NCBI RefSeq assembly: GCF_029960785.1
Contig: NZ_JASBQE010000074.1
Span: forward strand, 1 to 57,500
Direction of reading: 5' to 3'
Origin: Polyangium sp. 15x6
GTDB taxonomy: Bacteria; Myxococcota_A; Polyangia; Polyangiales; Polyangiaceae
Length of the DNA stretch: 57,500 nucleotides
Both the position numbers and the translations under genes were made by a program. Positions 39,838-46,114 of the stretch are shown piece after piece. The notes below the pieces were generated by a model, which saw only the letters and a list, made by a program, of their open reading frames with translations, did not search any database and was not told the DNA's origin. The number at the start of each line of letters is the position of its first letter. Position 1 is the first letter of the stretch.

Positions 39838-40394
39838 CGGGCGCCGAGGCCCATGGCCGTGTCGAAGGCGAAGAGGAAGCTGCCTTGCAGGGCGACGCCC
39901 GCGCCGGCGCCGCGGACCCAGTCGTTCTTGCCAAACCCGATCATCAAGGCCCCGGCCGTCACGTAAAGGACGTCGAGCCCTGCATTCATGAGGAAGATCG
40001 TGCGCGCCCTGCGATCCTCGGCCTGCCAGTAGGAAATAGGTTTGTCGAGGCCACGCTGCTTCGCGAGGCCGCGGTAGCCGAACCCGGCGATGACGCCGTC
40101 GACCGCGCCCCAGGCGACGTTCTGGATGCCGATCGAGCGTGTGTAGTCGTCGCCGCCCGTGGCCCAGAGCGCGGCGCCCGTGGCGATGCTGGCGACGGCC
40201 CAGCTCGTGAGCACGGTCATCGCGCGCGTCTGCGTTTCGAGGTGCGCCTCGCGCGCGGCGATGGCCGCGGGATCCGGCCCTTTCGGCGCAGGCAGGGGCA
40301 CGGGCGCGAGCGCGGGGGCGGGCGGCTCCGCGTGCGCGATCGCGGGCGCGAGGAGCAAGGTGAGGGCGTGGATCCCGAGGGCGCGCCGTGGCAT
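39834..40394 (-). CDS. Small membrane protein of unknown function
   Basis: The 186 aa protein has a signal peptide ending near AIAHA. A Pro/Ala spacer and about four hydrophobic segments follow (for example TVLTSWAVASIATGAALWA and TIFLMNAGLDVLYVTAGALMI). A repeated GxGY/GAGAGVALQG-like pattern suggests helix packing. It resembles a DUF-type family of myxobacterial membrane proteins but is not identified further. Divergent from the alpha/beta hydrolase gene with 11 bp between starts, so the promoters must overlap. Confidence 0.7.
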   Translation of the reverse strand: MPRRALGIHALTLLLAPAIAHAEPPAPALAPVPLPAPKGPDPAAIAAREAHLETQTRAMTVLTSWAVASIATGAALWATGGDDYTRSIGIQNVAWGAVDGVIAGFGYRGLAKQRGLDKPISYWQAEDRRARTIFLMNAGLDVLYVTAGALMIGFGKNDWVRGAGAGVALQGSFLFAFDTAMGLGAR

Positions 40395-40405
40395 CGTGGT
40401 TTGGA

Positions 40406-41689
40406 ATGTACCAAGACCAAGCGCTCCCCCGAAGACCCTTCCTCGGCCTCGAGTTACGCGCGCGCCCCGCGGAGGGCGCCTCGGAGGGCCTCGAGGTCGT
40501 GCGGGTAGCCGAAGGCGGGGCCGCCGCGCTCGCGGGCGTGCGTGCGGGCGATCGCCTGGTGGCGCTGGGAGATGTGACGGTGTCCGAGCCGCGCGCGCTC
40601 GTCGCGCTCGTCCGAGGCCTCGTGCCCGGCGCCCCGCTCCATTTCGAGATCGTGCGGGACGGCGCGCGCGTGACGCTCCCCGGCAAGGCCACGCCGCTGC
40701 CGGTCGAGCGTATCGCGGGCGCGGAGGTTCGTCTGGGACACGTGACCGTGCGGGAATCGTGGCGGCAAAGGACGCTCGTTGCGATTCCCACGGCGGGCCG
40801 TCCTCCTTTCACGACCGTGGTTTTTCTTTCGGGCCTTGGCACGGCCTCGTGCGAGCTCCCGCAGGACCCGGATGATCCCATGCGCGCTTTGCTCTCGGGC
40901 CTCGCGGACGCGGGCATCGCCACGATGCGCGTCGAGCGGAGCGGCGTGGGCGACAGCGAGGGTCCGCCCTGCCAAACCACGGGGTTCTTCGACGAGGTGG
41001 AGGCCTACCGGGCCGCGCTCGAATCGCTCGCGCAGGACCCGCTCGTGGGGCGGATCGTGATCTTCGGCCATAGCCTCGGGGGCATGATCGCGCCGATCCT
41101 CGCAGGCGAGGGAACGCAGGCGCGCGGCGTCGTCGTGTTCGGCACGTCCCAGCTCAAATGGGTCGACTGTATGGTGCGGGCGACGCGGCGGCAGCGCATC
41201 CTCGCCGGGATGGAAGGCGAGGAGCTCGAGAGGTACGTCGCCGCGTGGAGCGAGATGCATGCGAGCGTTTGTCGGGAAGGTATGTTCCCGCGGGACGTCT
41301 TCGCGAAGCGCCCCGAGCTCGCCTGGCTCGAAGGGCCCTCGTGCCACGGCGAGACGATGTTCGGCCGTCACGTCTCGTTGTTCCAGGAGATCGAGCGCCT
41401 CGATCTGCCCGGGCTCTTTCGGACGACGAACGTGCCCGTGCTCGTGCTGCACGGGAGTTACGATTATGCCGCGGCGCCGGACGAGGGGCGGATGATCGCG
41501 GACGAGATCGCGGCCGCGTCGCCGGGGCGGTCGCACTTCGTGCTCCTCGACAAGGTGGGGCACGACATGCGCCGGCACGAGAGTTACGCGCAGAGCTACA
41601 AGAACCCCCGTGCCGGCGTGTGGGACGACGGGCTCCTCCGCGCGATGCTCGAATGGCTCTCGCACGAGGGGCTCGGGCCCGCCGCCTGA
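40406..41689 (+). CDS. Alpha/beta hydrolase with N-terminal PDZ domain
   Basis: The 427 aa protein begins with a PDZ domain (residues about 10-85; RPFLGLELR, then VAEGGAAALAGVRAGDRLVALGD). An alpha/beta-hydrolase fold follows, with nucleophile Ser in IFGHSLGG, oxyanion segment LSGLGTA and a late His in VGHDMRR. The PDZ may place substrate or a partner peptide next to the hydrolase. No signal peptide or membrane helix. A GTG 18 bases upstream is possible, but the ATG at 40406 is preferred. Its TGA directly abuts the stop of the convergent radical SAM gene, forming TGATCA. Confidence 0.85.
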   Translation: MYQDQALPRRPFLGLELRARPAEGASEGLEVVRVAEGGAAALAGVRAGDRLVALGDVTVSEPRALVALVRGLVPGAPLHFEIVRDGARVTLPGKATPLPVERIAGAEVRLGHVTVRESWRQRTLVAIPTAGRPPFTTVVFLSGLGTASCELPQDPDDPMRALLSGLADAGIATMRVERSGVGDSEGPPCQTTGFFDEVEAYRAALESLAQDPLVGRIVIFGHSLGGMIAPILAGEGTQARGVVVFGTSQLKWVDCMVRATRRQRILAGMEGEELERYVAAWSEMHASVCREGMFPRDVFAKRPELAWLEGPSCHGETMFGRHVSLFQEIERLDLPGLFRTTNVPVLVLHGSYDYAAAPDEGRMIADEIAAASPGRSHFVLLDKVGHDMRRHESYAQSYKNPRAGVWDDGLLRAMLEWLSHEGLGPAA

Positions 41690-42988
41690 TCAGCGAAGAT
41701 CCTCGTCGACGAGCGCCCACGAGGCGCGATCGAACGGAAGCCCCTCGGCCGGCGCGACCCGCATGACCCGCTCGCGTTTGCCGAGGCGCTGCATTTCGAG
41801 GGCGCGGTGATGGCAATACGGGTTGTTCCCCGGTTTGCCGAAGAGGGCCGTCGCCATCCAGGTGCATCCGCCGCGACAAACCTCGCCGTAATAACACGTG
41901 CGGCAATACCCCCAGCGCTCCTCCTCCGTGCGATCCCGCATGTGGCGGAGCGCGGACGAGCGCTCCCAGATGTCGCGCAGGGAAGCCTGCCGCACGTTGC
42001 CGCCGACCCAGGACTCCGTGGGCAGCGAGGGGCAGCCCTTGACGTCGCCGTTCGACTCGATGCCCAGCGTGGAGCGGCCGGCGCTGCACGAATCGGCATG
42101 TTTTTCCGTGGTGTAGCTGCGCAGGAGGTGCTCGAAGGGCCCGTAATAACCGACGTTGTTGCCGGCGAGCATCTTGACGCGCGCGGCGTCGGCGCGCGCC
42201 TTGAGCGAGGCGAGCAGCGGGAAGAGCTCCAGGAGATCGTACGGCTGCAAAAGGACGTCCGGCTCGTCGGCGGCGCGGCCGACCGGGACCGTGAGCTGCA
42301 CTTGCCAGCCGTGCGCGGAGACGTCGAGGATCAGATCGAAGACATGCGGGAGCTCGCAGAGGTTCAGGCGGTTCACCTGCGTATTGACCGCGACCGGGAT
42401 CCCGGCCTCGCGGCCATTGCGGAGCGCCTGCACGGCCGCCGCGTACGAGCCCGAGAGCCCGCGCAGCCGATCGTGGGTGGGCTCGGTGCCGTCGATGGAG
42501 ACGGCGATGCTCTGCACGCCGGCCTCCTTGGCCAAACGCGCGCGCTCCGGGGTCATGCCGCGGCCGCCCGTGACGAGCGTGCTTTGCATGCCCGCACGGC
42601 GTATTTCCCGGACAACCTCGGTCCATCCTTCGTGCAGGTATACTTCGCCGCCGATGAGCGCGACCTCGCGCACGCCGAGCGCCGCCATCTGCCGGACGAG
42701 ATCCGTGGCCTCCGCGGTCGTGAGTTCGTCTGGGCGCGACGCGCCCGCGCGCGAGCCGCAATGGCGGCAGGCGAGGTCACAGGCGAGCGTCAGCTCCCAG
42801 ACCGCGTAAATGGGGCGGCATTCGAGATCGATATCGCGGACCTCGCGCGCGAGCGGGAGATGCTTGCCCCGCGCCTCGCTCGCCATCTGCCCGGCGCGCG
42901 GCAAGAGCGGCAGGCCTCGGGGCCGCGTCGCTTGCATGACGGCGCGGCGCTTCTCGGGATCGAGCGGATCGTTCGGCCGATCTTCCAC
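41690..42988 (-). CDS. Radical SAM/SPASM maturase B
   Basis: The 432 aa protein has the radical SAM [4Fe-4S] motif CDLACRHC (Cys70, Cys74, Cys77) and GGEVYLHE. A SPASM-type C-terminal part follows with many Cys: CSAG, GDVKGCPSL, CRTCYYGEVCRGGC and NPYCHH. SPASM enzymes usually form thioether, C-C or other bonds in peptides. It is a paralog of the protein at 43409 and is preceded by the small zinc-ribbon lipoprotein gene. It starts with GTG 2 bp after that gene's stop; a shorter ATG start at 42937 is possible. Substrate inferred to be that small protein or its relatives. Confidence 0.88.
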   Translation of the reverse strand: MEDRPNDPLDPEKRRAVMQATRPRGLPLLPRAGQMASEARGKHLPLAREVRDIDLECRPIYAVWELTLACDLACRHCGSRAGASRPDELTTAEATDLVRQMAALGVREVALIGGEVYLHEGWTEVVREIRRAGMQSTLVTGGRGMTPERARLAKEAGVQSIAVSIDGTEPTHDRLRGLSGSYAAAVQALRNGREAGIPVAVNTQVNRLNLCELPHVFDLILDVSAHGWQVQLTVPVGRAADEPDVLLQPYDLLELFPLLASLKARADAARVKMLAGNNVGYYGPFEHLLRSYTTEKHADSCSAGRSTLGIESNGDVKGCPSLPTESWVGGNVRQASLRDIWERSSALRHMRDRTEEERWGYCRTCYYGEVCRGGCTWMATALFGKPGNNPYCHHRALEMQRLGKRERVMRVAPAEGLPFDRASWALVDEDLR

Positions 42989-42990
42989 GG

Positions 42991-43365
42991 TCAAACGCGC
43001 AGGATGTCGCAGGCCTCGTCCGGGAAGACGCATCCATAAGGCGGACAGACGTTGTCCACGCACGGGCCGCCGCCGGGGTGGCGCTCCCGGCTTTCGTCGA
43101 TCGCTTTCTGGCGCTCCCTTGCGAGCTCCTCTTCGGTCTGGACGTCGTTCGGGCCACGGGCCGGCTGGTTGTTACATCCCGCGACGGCCACGGTCGCGGC
43201 GATCGCGGCGCCGACGAGGTAACGCTGGGCGCGCGAGAGCTCCGGCGTGAGGGCGTGCGGAGGCGCGCCCGGCTCGGCGGAAATGGCGAGGCCGCAGAAG
43301 GGGCACGAGGTCTCGCGGGGGAAGACGTGCCGCTTGCAAGACGGGCAGAGGACCATGGAAGGCAT
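42991..43365 (-). CDS. Zinc-ribbon, membrane-anchored small protein with Y-G-x4-D motif (candidate maturase substrate)
   Basis: The 124 aa protein begins with a zinc ribbon, Cys7-x2-Cys10-x10-Cys21-x2-Cys24. A hydrophobic segment (residues about 48-63) ends in Cys64 (VAVAGC, lipobox-like). A charged helix and a Cys-rich C-terminus follow (Cys102, 107, 112, 119). Within the latter lies PPYGCVFPDE, a Y-G-x4-D motif (Tyr110 to Asp116) also found in the protein at 44784. A good ribosome-binding site (GAGGAG) precedes the ATG. It lies between the two SPASM genes, with the radical SAM gene starting 2 bp after its stop. Role as modified peptide/lipoprotein is inference. Confidence 0.75.
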   Translation of the reverse strand: MPSMVLCPSCKRHVFPRETSCPFCGLAISAEPGAPPHALTPELSRAQRYLVGAAIAATVAVAGCNNQPARGPNDVQTEEELARERQKAIDESRERHPGGGPCVDNVCPPYGCVFPDEACDILRV

Positions 43366-43408
43366 GGCGAGGCTCCTCGGGAGAGGACAACGCAGCGAGC
43401 CGCCCTTG

Positions 43409-44695
43409 TCAATCGGAAGCGATCGGCAGCCTGCGCCGCGGCGCGTCGCCGGTCAGCGGGCTCGCCGTTTCCGCCCCGAGCGGCTCCTCGACGAGCTCGA
43501 AGAGGCCGAAGTCGTAGGGCCGTTGCGGCGCGTTTTCCCGCTTCTCGATGCGCTCGCGCACGCCGCGTTTCTCGAGCTCCTTCACCCGGTGATAACAGAA
43601 GGGATTGTTCCCGCGTCGCCCCAGCGTGCAATGGGTTGTCCACGAGCAGCCTGCGCGGCAATACGGGGCGAAATAACAGGTCCGGCAGAATCCCCAGAGC
43701 TCGTCCTCCGTCCGCTCGCGGGCAAACCGGAGCGCCTCTCCGTGCTCCCAGATGGCGTCGAGCGAGAGCGCGCGCACGTTGCCGCCCGCGTAAGGCGCCG
43801 TGGGCAGCGAGGGACAGCCCTTCACGGTCCCGTCGGATTCGATGCCGATGCCGGAAATGCCAGCGCGACAGCCGCTCCAGTAGGCCTCCTGGCCGCCCGG
43901 TCGCGAGCGGAGCAGGGCCTCGTGCGGGCCGTAATAACCGAGGTTGTTGCCCGCCACGACGTCGAAGATCCATCCCTTGCCCTGGGCCTCGCTCGCCGCC
44001 TCGCGCTGGATGGCCGCGAGCGTGTCGATGATCGGCACCACGTGCCACGGCTCGACGATCCATTCGGGCCGATCCGCCGCGCGTCCCATCGGCACCGTGA
44101 GCTGCACCTGCCACGCGAGCGCACCCCGAGCGCGGATGTCGGCCGCGATCTCGCGCAGGACGCCCATGTTCAGGCGATTGATCTGTGTATTCGCGGTGAG
44201 AAGGAGGCCCGCGGCGGCGCCCGCGTCGAGCGCGCGCATCGCGGCGGCGTGGCTGCCTCGGTTGCCGCGGAGCTCGTCGTGAATCGGGGCCGTCCCGTCG
44301 ACGGAGACGCCGAGCACCGTGAGGCCGGCGTCGCGGAGCTTTCGCGCCCGTTCTACCGTCATGGCGCGGCCGCCCGTCTGCATGACGACGCGCAGCCCAT
44401 GCCCGGCGAGGCGCCCGATGACCGTGTGGATGTCCTCGCGGAGATACGCCTCGCCGCCGATGAGCACGACCTCGCGGCAGCCAAGGCGGGCGAGGCTGTC
44501 GGCGACGTCGAGGACCTCGGTCGTGGAGAGCTCGGCGCTGCGGGCGTGGCCGGCGCGGGACCCGCAATGCTGGCAGGGCTGATCGCATTTCATCGTCAGC
44601 TCCCAGACGGCGAAGAGCGGGATGGGCGCGTCGCCGTCCTCGGGCCTGCGCGCGCGGGGGGCGGGGGTCGTCTCGGGGCTCGCAGGCTCGGCCAT
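43409..44695 (-). CDS. Radical SAM/SPASM maturase A
   Basis: The 428 aa protein has CDQPCQHC (Cys37, Cys41, Cys44), a GGEAYLRE motif, and a SPASM tail with CRAG, GTVKGCPSL, CRTCYFAPYCRAGC and NPFCYH. It shares long stretches with the gene at 41690, such as VWELT...CGSRAG, WQVQLTVP.GRAAD and AGNN.GYYGP, so the two are paralogs. Both probably act on related substrates. It is the first gene of the minus-strand unit A, zinc-ribbon protein, B. Its start is 88 bp from the divergent small-protein gene at 44784, which should share the promoter region. Confidence 0.88.
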   Translation of the reverse strand: MAEPASPETTPAPRARRPEDGDAPIPLFAVWELTMKCDQPCQHCGSRAGHARSAELSTTEVLDVADSLARLGCREVVLIGGEAYLREDIHTVIGRLAGHGLRVVMQTGGRAMTVERARKLRDAGLTVLGVSVDGTAPIHDELRGNRGSHAAAMRALDAGAAAGLLLTANTQINRLNMGVLREIAADIRARGALAWQVQLTVPMGRAADRPEWIVEPWHVVPIIDTLAAIQREAASEAQGKGWIFDVVAGNNLGYYGPHEALLRSRPGGQEAYWSGCRAGISGIGIESDGTVKGCPSLPTAPYAGGNVRALSLDAIWEHGEALRFARERTEDELWGFCRTCYFAPYCRAGCSWTTHCTLGRRGNNPFCYHRVKELEKRGVRERIEKRENAPQRPYDFGLFELVEEPLGAETASPLTGDAPRRRLPIASD

Positions 44696-44783
44696 GGGCG
44701 CCGAGCTTAACCGTTTCGTGCTTTCGTGTCGCGGGGCGCGAGGGCGCTTGACGAGGCTGCCGGGTCGTTGCGATCATCACGAC

Positions 44784-45068
44784 ATGCCTCCCAGCCTCGT
44801 CCTCTGCTCGGCCTGTGGGTGTCATGCGCGATCGACCGAGAGCGAGTGCCCTCATTGCGGCGCTCGCCTGCGCGGCGAGGGCGGCACACCGCTCCGCAGC
44901 GCGGCGGCGCTCCTGCTCGGGCTGACCCTCGCGGCGGCGGCGGCCGAGGGCTGCGTGATGACCGCGGCCTATGGCGGTCCGCCGATCGACGGATCGGGCG
45001 GAGGAGGGAAGGGCGGCGCGGGAGGCGCGGGCGGCGCGGGCGGCGCCGAGGATGCCGGGACGGATTGA
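44784..45068 (+). CDS. Zinc-ribbon small protein with lipobox-like segment, AAYGGPPID motif and Gly-rich tail
   Basis: The 94 aa protein has Cys8-x2-Cys11-x10-Cys22-x2-Cys25 and a hydrophobic segment (LRSAAALLLGLTLAAAA). Cys57 in AAEGCVM comes next, then Tyr63-Gly64-x4-Asp69 (AAYGGPPIDG), and it ends in a Gly/Ala-rich tail. Its ribbon spacing and Y-G-x4-D motif equal those of the protein at 42991. It looks like a second precursor for the same maturases. No strong ribosome-binding site was found, so the start is less certain. It is followed after 18 bp by a third ribbon gene. Confidence 0.7.
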   Translation: MPPSLVLCSACGCHARSTESECPHCGARLRGEGGTPLRSAAALLLGLTLAAAAAEGCVMTAAYGGPPIDGSGGGGKGGAGGAGGAGGAEDAGTD

Positions 45069-45086
45069 AGCAAGGGGGCTCCGACC

Positions 45087-45452
45087 ATGTCCACTTCGAC
45101 CCGACCGTGTACGATGTGCCGTGCCTTGAATTCGCTCAAGGACCCTCATTGCCGGGTGTGCAATTGGTTTCTGGGATACTCCGCGGAGGACCGCCCGCCC
45201 CCTCCTGAATCTTGGCCGGAGCCGCCTCCGGTCCCTCCTCCGTGGGATCCATCGAGCGGCGCACCGCCGCCGGTCCCGGGGTATGGCGCGCCGCCGCTGC
45301 CGGCCAACGCGTCGATTGTACGGGAAGAAGGATTCGGCCCGCCGCCCATGCCGCCGAATCCTCCCACCTTGGGCCCCTCGCCGCCGGATTGGGTTCCGCC
45401 GGGGTTCATGCCCCCGCCGAATCCCCCGGACGACGAGGGCGAAGAGAAGTAA
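45087..45452 (+). CDS. Zinc-ribbon, Pro-rich small protein
   Basis: The 121 aa protein has Cys8-x2-Cys11-x10-Cys22-x2-Cys25, with the same spacing and positions as the protein encoded 18 bp upstream. From about residue 35 it is almost only Pro/Gly/Ser (PPPPESWPEPPPVPPPWDP, then YGAPPLP, PPGFMPPPNPP) and ends acidic. It lacks the membrane segment and the Cys lipid site. AAGGGGG is a convincing ribosome-binding site. It may be an adaptor or scaffold for the ribbon/maturase system. Confidence 0.72.
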   Translation: MSTSTRPCTMCRALNSLKDPHCRVCNWFLGYSAEDRPPPPESWPEPPPVPPPWDPSSGAPPPVPGYGAPPLPANASIVREEGFGPPPMPPNPPTLGPSPPDWVPPGFMPPPNPPDDEGEEK

Positions 45453-45454
45453 GC

Positions 45455-46114
45455 TCAATCGCCTGCGCACACGCCCGCGCTGCACACCTGGCCGCTCGGG
45501 CAATCGCAATCCACCTGGCAGGGGATCTGCGGCGCGGGAGGCGCCTCGCAATAGCCGCCGACGCAGCTCTGGCCCGTCGGGCATTCGCACGACGCCGCGC
45601 AGGCGACCTTGCACGCGCCGTCGATGCACGACGAGCCGCTCGGACAATCACAATCGGCCACGCAGTCGACCGGCTCATAGCCCCCTTCGCCGCCGGCGCC
45701 ATTGCCGCCGGTGCTGTACCCGCCGGCGCCGACGCCGACGCTGCCGTAGCCGCCGGCCCCGTCGTTGCCGGAAGGGTTCGGCAGCGGCGCGCCCGGACAA
45801 TCGTAGGCGCCGAGATCCACGCACCCCGCCTCGATCACGCAGATGCAGCCCGTCTCCACCAGATAGGGCGTCGACGCGTGCTTCGCATTGCAGCCATCGA
45901 TGCACGCGACGTGCGCGCTCCCGTCGATGGCCCCGCAGCCGGCGAGGTGATCACACATGTCGAAGCAGATCCCGGCCGGCCCGTACTCGCCCTCGCCGGA
46001 CCCGTCATCGTCCCACGAGCCGTTCCCGTGCTCGATGTAGCACCCGCCCGTGACCGTCACCATGGACAGAAACAACCCGAGAGCCCAAGCGTGGGCCGCG
46101 CGACGCGTCATCAT
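45455..46114 (-). CDS. Lipoprotein with EGF-like/Cys-repeat domains
   Basis: The 219 aa protein has a lipobox (VTGGC, Cys at about residue 25). A Gly/Ser/Tyr-rich linker follows. Then come three tandem Cys repeats (CVADCDCPSGSSCIDGAC, CAASCECPTGQSCVGGYC, CQVDCDCPSGQVCSAGVC), each a C-x3-C-x-C-x5-C-x4-C unit, typical of small disulfide-bonded modules. The start is supported by GAGGTG 4 bases upstream. It is convergent with the small-protein operon at 45087, and its own upstream region (46115-46352) holds nothing else. Confidence 0.82.
   Translation of the reverse strand: MMTRRAAHAWALGLFLSMVTVTGGCYIEHGNGSWDDDGSGEGEYGPAGICFDMCDHLAGCGAIDGSAHVACIDGCNAKHASTPYLVETGCICVIEAGCVDLGAYDCPGAPLPNPSGNDGAGGYGSVGVGAGGYSTGGNGAGGEGGYEPVDCVADCDCPSGSSCIDGACKVACAASCECPTGQSCVGGYCEAPPAPQIPCQVDCDCPSGQVCSAGVCAGD

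Follow-up and report, generated by a model that had tools for sequence, protein, structure and literature searches.

A predicted splicease-type modification system for zinc-ribbon lipoproteins in Polyangium sp. 15x6 and other Myxococcota

The SPASM enzyme PlpX removes tyramine from Nif11-type precursors at Xaa-Tyr-Gly, and its InterPro entry is stated to be IPR026482 (PMC11002830, excerpt). The splice tags of PlpXY contain YGLPI and YGVVFPG (PMC10533398, excerpt). According to a 2022 review, natural spliceotides had yet to be isolated, and what these products do biologically was unknown (PMC8868522, excerpt). Here we describe a 57,500-nucleotide stretch of DNA from Polyangium sp. 15x6 (the window), with the focus on positions 41690-45452, where two radical SAM/SPASM enzymes, maturases A and B, are encoded together with two ribbon lipoproteins and a third small protein. 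We take IPR026482 to be the InterPro entry of TIGR04103, and hence TIGR04103 to be the PlpX type. Homology and a shared motif suggest that the locus probably encodes a splicease-type modification system which would excise tyramine at the X-Tyr-Gly (XYG) of ribbon-tagged lipoproteins.

On the minus strand, maturase A (43409-44695, 428 residues), ribbon lipoprotein 1 (42991-43365, 124 residues) and maturase B (41690-42988, 432 residues) follow each other with gaps of 43 and 2 bp. The genes of ribbon lipoprotein 2 (44784-45068, 94 residues) and of the Pro-rich ribbon protein 3 (45087-45452, 121 residues) are on the plus strand, 88 bp from maturase A. These five open reading frames (ORFs) and their spacing agree with the first-pass annotation, which was made from the sequence without database searches. 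The same five-gene arrangement recurs in two further Polyangium genomes (loci L014 and L015) and is thus no assembly artefact, and maturase B is 97% identical to its counterpart in Polyangium sp. y55x31, which holds the same five genes. Maturase B starts at the GTG at 42988, with the ATG at 42937 as an alternative. The guanine plus cytosine fraction at third codon positions is 0.86-0.88 in maturase A, maturase B and ribbon lipoprotein 1, and 0.81 and 0.73 in the divergent genes 2 and 3, respectively.

The ribbon proteins have a common layout of L-x-P-C-x-x-C-x-R-H-V-R...C-P-F-C, a linker, R-L-S-R-A-A, a hydrophobic stretch and a Cys. The core after this Cys in Myxococcota ribbon proteins usually carries one to five X-Tyr-Gly motifs, most of them XYGxP. 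All 24 aligned ribbon rows have C7, C10, H13, C21, P22, C24 and the later Cys, and the residue at -1 of the conserved Cys is G, A or S in 175 of 177 ribbon proteins. Twin-arginine export was considered and set aside, as RR stands ahead of the hydrophobic segment in only 27 of the 115 ribbon proteins found near maturases. The three small proteins of the window had all been called zinc-ribbon proteins; this is clear for the 124- and 94-residue proteins, but the 121-residue protein has CxxC...CxxC only and no RH..CPFC. All three contain XYG, with the sites YGCVFP, YGGPP and YGAPP in proteins 1, 2 and 3, respectively. Pfam matches of the window ribbons are weak and generic, and the end of the TIGR03913 model matches them weakly (E-values of 0.009 and 0.019).

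In ribbon lipoprotein 1, Cys64 lies within a VAGC lipobox and the core ends with CPPYGCVFPDEACDILRV. Its predicted modification site is Tyr110-Gly111 in PYG (43033-43038, minus strand), at columns conserved in at least 90% of 19 rows. A nearly identical sequence, CPPYGCVFPDEACDTFRV, ends another ribbon protein of the same genome (L147). AlphaFold predicted the ribbon (residues 1-30) with confidence, at block means of 85-90; a helix at residues 46-61 is of low confidence, as is most of the rest except part of a helix at residues 78-94. Ribbon lipoprotein 2, which matches the ribbon model with an E-value of 1.3e-15, has a hydrophobic segment and Cys57 in a non-canonical AEGC followed by TAAYGGPPIDG, conserved in L014 and L015; the motif pattern places its predicted site at Tyr63-Gly64, the YGGP of AYGGPP (44970-44981, plus strand). 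Ribbon protein 3 has no evident hydrophobic segment or lipobox and no match to Pfam or to the ribbon model. It carries PGYGAPPLP, with the Tyr-Gly codons of the GYG site at 45282-45287 (plus strand), and PGYGAPPLPANA is kept in L014 and L015 while the remainder varies. We consider it a possible substrate, less certain than ribbon lipoproteins 1 and 2.

Placement and motif content were followed over 78 loci of related enzymes taken from genome records; some of the loci are from close relatives, and the locus counts, genome counts and Fisher p value given here carry no correction for kinship. Within 4 kb of a maturase, 115 ribbon proteins were found in 64 of the 78 loci, 107 of them on the maturase strand. 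Seven further pattern matches, two of which are homologues of ribbon protein 3, were set aside from the 115. Tyr-Gly (YG) is present in 109 of these proteins. Their cores hold 305 Tyr residues, of which 264 are in YG, compared with a mean of 48 and a maximum of 67 in 500 shuffles, and 219 are in YGxP. In 909 ORFs from the neighbourhood, each of 250 codons or more, a set that includes unreal frames, YG is found at 354 and YGxP at 23 of 3685 Tyr residues. The other aromatic residues of the cores do not take the place of Tyr (FGxP at 1 of 247 Phe and WGxP at 0 of 20 Trp). YG precedes the Cys in just 2 of 177 ribbon proteins, so in almost all of them the motif falls within the segment predicted for export.

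Ribbon proteins are also encoded away from maturases. A model of the ribbon and signal, with rows that include some tail residues, was used for 60 sites in 12 genomes. Two were left out as non-remote: L174, beside a maturase and with the same protein as L087, and L148, 3.6 kb off. The remaining 58 are on contigs that have no maturase or lie 40 kb or more away from one; these are draft contigs, which give the true distances only in part. At 57 of these sites a ribbon-only pattern read 62 proteins, all 62 with YG and 60 with YGxP, and a YG ribbon protein is present at the 58th site too. The model cut at the Cys still matches all 63 ribbon proteins read at the fetched sites. One genome has 26 ribbon proteins and another 27 (E-value of at most 1e-4).

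Across 377 Myxococcota genomes, 149 have a maturase (E-value of at most 1e-60) and 106 a ribbon protein (at most 1e-4). The ribbon protein genomes comprise 98 of the 120 with a maturase at 1e-140 or better, one of the 29 with a weaker maturase, and seven with none. The Fisher p value for the overlap of 98 of 106 is about 3e-58. At ribbon E-values below 1e-6, 93 of 93 genomes also hold a high-scoring maturase, so ribbon proteins spread widely without a radical SAM partner, the finding named beforehand as contrary to a maturation system, were not seen in this set. The first-pass annotation had proposed that the small proteins are substrates or carriers in a peptide or lipoprotein maturation system. 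Co-location, co-occurrence and the shared motif strongly support the substrate role; on these grounds the ribbon proteins are very likely substrates of the maturases, and XYG is likely the site of modification.

Maturases A and B share 48% identity across 395 aligned positions. They were said to share long identical stretches; they are indeed paralogues, but diverged ones, and the longest identical run is nine residues. The full Cys sets ascribed to them were confirmed: the three Cys of CxxxCxxC and the seven SPASM Cys (C301, C319, C362, C365, C371, C375 and C392 in maturase B) do not vary among the 34 aligned maturases, which include A, B and the third maturase of this genome. Radical_SAM and SPASM of Pfam exceed their cut-offs in maturase A. 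Among NCBIfam families (cut-offs of 725 bits for TIGR04103, 591.75 for TIGR03913, 425 for TIGR04133 and 39.8 for TIGR04134), TIGR04103 and TIGR03913 match maturase A with 424 and 419 bits and maturase B with 467 and 452 bits, respectively. All 34 aligned maturases match both of these families at 1e-60 or better, and no other family reaches that level in any of them. An anaerobic sulfatase maturase or a cofactor enzyme was rejected, as families beyond these two reach just 149 bits in A and 178 bits in B.

A quick tree places the Myxococcota enzymes on one side together with one TIGR04103, two TIGR03913, the Aureibacter and the Tropicibacter enzymes, with a Shimodaira-Hasegawa-like approximate likelihood ratio test (SH-aLRT) value of 97. 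The opposite side holds MftC, PqqE, TIGR04053, TIGR04133 and Agathobacter enzymes, all five on very long branches, and the branching order at the base of the Myxococcota/TIGR04103/TIGR03913 group was not resolved. Maturases A and B stand apart in this tree. Maturase A joins the third maturase (95), a grouping flagged as possible long-branch attraction. The AlphaFold model of maturase B has a predicted local distance difference test (pLDDT) score of 86.7, and its nearest solved folds are SkfB, PqqE and SuiB. The third maturase (genome C275, locus L011, 4561-5835) is about 50% identical to B; no ribbon gene was seen directly beside it, and by eye its upstream gene resembles a hybrid histidine kinase. 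Maturases themselves also multiply: another genome, G295, encodes six of them over five contigs, together with at least 14 ribbon proteins. There was no support for the idea that the two window enzymes make two different modifications, since a single motif type is common to the substrates; A and B probably catalyse one and the same reaction, each on its own subset of substrates.

The TIGR04103 type was represented in our comparison by one sequence, a Nostoc plasmid enzyme, and not by the original PlpX. This enzyme scores 853 bits against TIGR04103 (cut-off 725) and is 49% identical to maturase B over 87% of its length. The Nif11 precursor adjoining it ends with ALYGLPPELF. PlpXY/TIGR04103 and the present system thus have in common a SPASM enzyme and, by the Nostoc precursor, the X-Y-G-x-P motif of the ribbon proteins. 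They differ in the leader, which is of the Nif11 kind there and a ribbon plus lipoprotein signal here; family scans gave no Nif11 or nitrile-hydratase leader match for the small proteins of the window. They differ also in the partner PlpY, present there and found in none of the 78 loci here, and in the many substrates scattered over the genome here.

The TIGR03913 GDL system, with DUF1842/DUF1843 peptides, is just as close in its enzyme; it has a zinc ribbon of the same kind, and its peptides bear a Tyr motif. Maturases A and B end before the ribbon and have their ribbons on separate proteins, whereas a similar-looking ribbon stands at the C-terminus of the TIGR03913-type enzymes of Azospirillum, Aureibacter (535 bits, below the cut-off) and L013. 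In the Tropicibacter enzyme the ribbon is N-terminal. The TIGR03913 peptides that were read lack a ribbon and a lipoprotein signal, and their YG is less strict, being present in three of seven GDL-type peptides from three TIGR03913-type loci (LYGVPI, PYGP and PYGA). A Chromobacterium DUF1842/DUF1843 operon with a GDL maturase is similar to the present locus in that a radical SAM/SPASM maturase adjoins small repeated partners, and different in being of the TIGR03913 type, with no splicing claim in the excerpted text (PMC12114271). At L212 (2622-4379) a GDL-type maturase is followed by a separate small ribbon ORF, which would make the ribbon a detached subunit, and the preceding peptide has MYGVALNEAIARGNL. 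On a predicted viral contig of IMG/VR (L013, 1-7730) a TIGR03913 cassette with two substrate-like genes has neighbours that by eye, outside any family search, resemble a tail protein, a DNA methylase and a recombinase, and the cassette may be prophage cargo. On a Tropicibacter oceani plasmid (L125, 109-8316), the cluster around the enzyme with the N-terminal ribbon includes, by annotation, a further radical SAM protein, a phosphotransferase and two peptidases, one trypsin-like and one of the M23 type.

A distant relation to the TIGR04133/TIGR04134 system of Bacteroidetes had also been suggested. It holds in kind, since all three TIGR04134-type lipoproteins examined carry xYGxP on or immediately behind a Cys (CEYGTP, CEYGSP and SCYGMP in L209, L213 and L214), hinting that TIGR04133 enzymes share the XYG site; of these three systems one was scored here and two were taken as annotated. 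The window enzymes are far below the TIGR04133 cut-off (134 and 157 bits vs. 425), the small proteins of the window gave no TIGR04134 match, and no ribbon was seen in the three systems read. Both TIGR03913 and TIGR04103, the latter being the splicease (PlpX) type, are nearer relations than the Bacteroidetes system. No TIGR04133 relatives were found when viral contigs were scanned.

We propose that the N-terminal zinc ribbon of the small proteins would be the recognition leader for the maturase; in related families a ribbon of the same kind is either part of the enzyme or a separate ORF. The maturase would excise tyramine at XYG and leave alpha-keto-beta-amino residues in the exported part. On homology and motif, tyramine excision is the likeliest chemistry, and one that we regard as reasonably probable. 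The hydrophobic segment and Cys would act as a lipoprotein signal, and signal peptidase II would take off ribbon and signal together, so that export would also remove the leader. The exported lipoprotein would then show one to five electrophilic ketoamides, which might be surface protease inhibitors or covalent traps.

Several observations weigh against the proposed tyramine excision system. Neither window enzyme reaches the cut-off of TIGR04103, and both also miss that of TIGR03913. No YG is found in six of the 115 near ribbon proteins (one cut by a contig end and five with IY[SA]A), and the strict lipobox pattern matches just 56 of 178 ribbon proteins. By the first pattern 14 of the 78 loci are without a near ribbon protein; a closer look found a ribbon in three of them and YG tails cut by contig ends in two, leaving nine. 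The seven ribbon genomes without a listed maturase have weak matches (E-values of 2e-6 to 7e-5). Conversely, 22 of the 120 genomes with a high-scoring maturase have no match to the ribbon class described so far (class 1), a deeper class-1 search of ten of these gave a best E-value of 2.8e-4, and the second ribbon class described below was shown in only some of the 22. A tblastn search of the 78 loci for a PlpY-like partner gave a best E-value of 0.09; the query, a 71-residue ORF after the Nostoc enzyme, is PlpY by presumption only, and a diverged or distantly encoded partner could escape such a search. Two other precursor-like genes near the Nostoc enzyme are without YG, and the GDL-type peptides that lack YG have [LM]YAA (three) or MYMATV (one).

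Some of these observations would be expected if the ribbon proteins were substrates whose YG is modified by another SPASM reaction, for example formation of a cyclophane or cross-link, epimerisation, or C-H functionalisation of Tyr or Gly. SPASM enzymes catalyse many reactions, the window enzymes are below the TIGR04103 cut-off, and no splicease is among the nearest solved structures. The motif described for PlpX is XYG, and the five substrates with IY[SA]A and the three YAA peptides depart from it. Against this, Tyr is strict and Gly near-strict by the Phe and Trp counts given above, and the closest annotated PlpX-type enzyme, that of Nostoc, adjoins a precursor with the same YGLPP-like motif; we consider another SPASM reaction unlikely. 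A three-residue cyclophane at Tyr is disfavored in particular because Gly, which follows YG at 64 of 264 sites, has no beta carbon. The ribbon proteins might instead be carriers or regulators of the maturases with the true substrate elsewhere: TIGR03913-type enzymes bear their own ribbon, therefore a ribbon can serve the enzyme and need not mark a substrate. A carrier or regulator would have no need for a repeated YGxP core, and the ribbon proteins occur in many scattered copies (26 in one genome, 27 in another), with YG in 62 of 62 remote copies, which makes this role very improbable. Zinc ribbons are common and the Pfam ribbon matches are weak and generic, so ordinary zinc-ribbon membrane proteins could lie beside radical SAM genes by chance; such an explanation is contradicted by the Fisher p value and by the high-scoring maturase in 93 of 93 strong-ribbon genomes, and we give it hardly any credence.

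In the second ribbon class the Cys is directly followed by Tyr-Gly, and T-L-x-A-C-Y-G is kept in five aligned proteins. It was shown in four of six maturase loci read; two of the six belong to the 22 genomes without class 1, L108 having the second class and L120 none that could be seen. In the 30 loci obtained with a second-class model, which are top-ranked and not random, CYG was found in 20 ORFs and YG in 29; with the five model-building rows removed, CYG was found in 15 of 25 and YG in 24 of 25, the sole exception looking like a wrong frame. A phylum tally of this class (240 of 377 genomes) was not used because the model includes a generic Asp-rich tail, and many second-class proteins carry such a tail, DGDG...GDGxDxNCDG. 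A second-class protein (MACYGLPPC) is encoded about 3.6 kb from the third Polyangium maturase. In this class X of XYG is presumed to be the lipid Cys itself, and splicing would therefore rebuild the lipoprotein N-terminus. Loci with the second class (TLMACYG) include L227-L256, L148 (302-979, in genome C275 of Polyangium sp. 15x6 itself), L096, L105, L108, L110, L111, L115 and L117.

If tyramine is indeed excised, a rare protein-splicing chemistry, and a rare route to beta-amino acids and reactive ketones in ribosomal protein, would be extended to dozens of surface proteins in one cell. The ribbon proteins, up to 27 per genome and some in named strains, are a large set of predicted natural substrates, each predicted to be a lipoprotein of the membrane or surface and to show a mass signature, the loss of C8H9NO (135.07 Da). 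They also lead to testable hypotheses, for example that the ribbon can be transferred as a tag and that the proteins inhibit proteases or serve in adhesion. Because spliceotides inhibit proteases, according to excerpts of papers citing Scott et al. (PMC10373908, PMC11117315), inhibition at the surface is a conjecture that merits a test. No paper was found on zinc-ribbon lipoproteins as splicease substrates, a group that Scott et al. 2022 and Richter et al. 2024 may already list. Relative to known spliceases the ribbon/lipoprotein leader and the genome-wide substrate set look new. Taken at its widest, our proposal is tentative, with chances somewhat short of even: Myxococcota would have a genome-wide protein-splicing program with a portable ribbon/lipoprotein leader, acting on up to about 27 lipoproteins per genome and giving alpha-keto-beta-amino residues at the surface; the second class would rebuild the lipoprotein N-terminus; and a common XYGxP logic would unite TIGR04103, TIGR03913, TIGR04133 and the present group.

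Other neighbors of the maturases were also compared. Among ORFs of at least 100 codons, a protein-kinase-like cluster is present in 14 loci at a median distance of 3.5 kb, and no convincing conserved neighbor was found; the other clusters, in up to seven loci, look like shadow frames of close relatives. For ORFs of 40-200 codons within 1.5 kb, the largest cluster covers 24 loci, and two of its members resemble antisense frames over the maturase start. On the two sides of the five window genes, the gene adjoining that of ribbon protein 3 (45455-46114, minus strand) encodes myxobacterial Cys-rich repeats (TIGR04201, 38.5 bits, cut-off 25), and a protein with PDZ and alpha/beta hydrolase domains is encoded at 40388-41689 (plus strand), convergent with maturase B, the two stop codons abutting.

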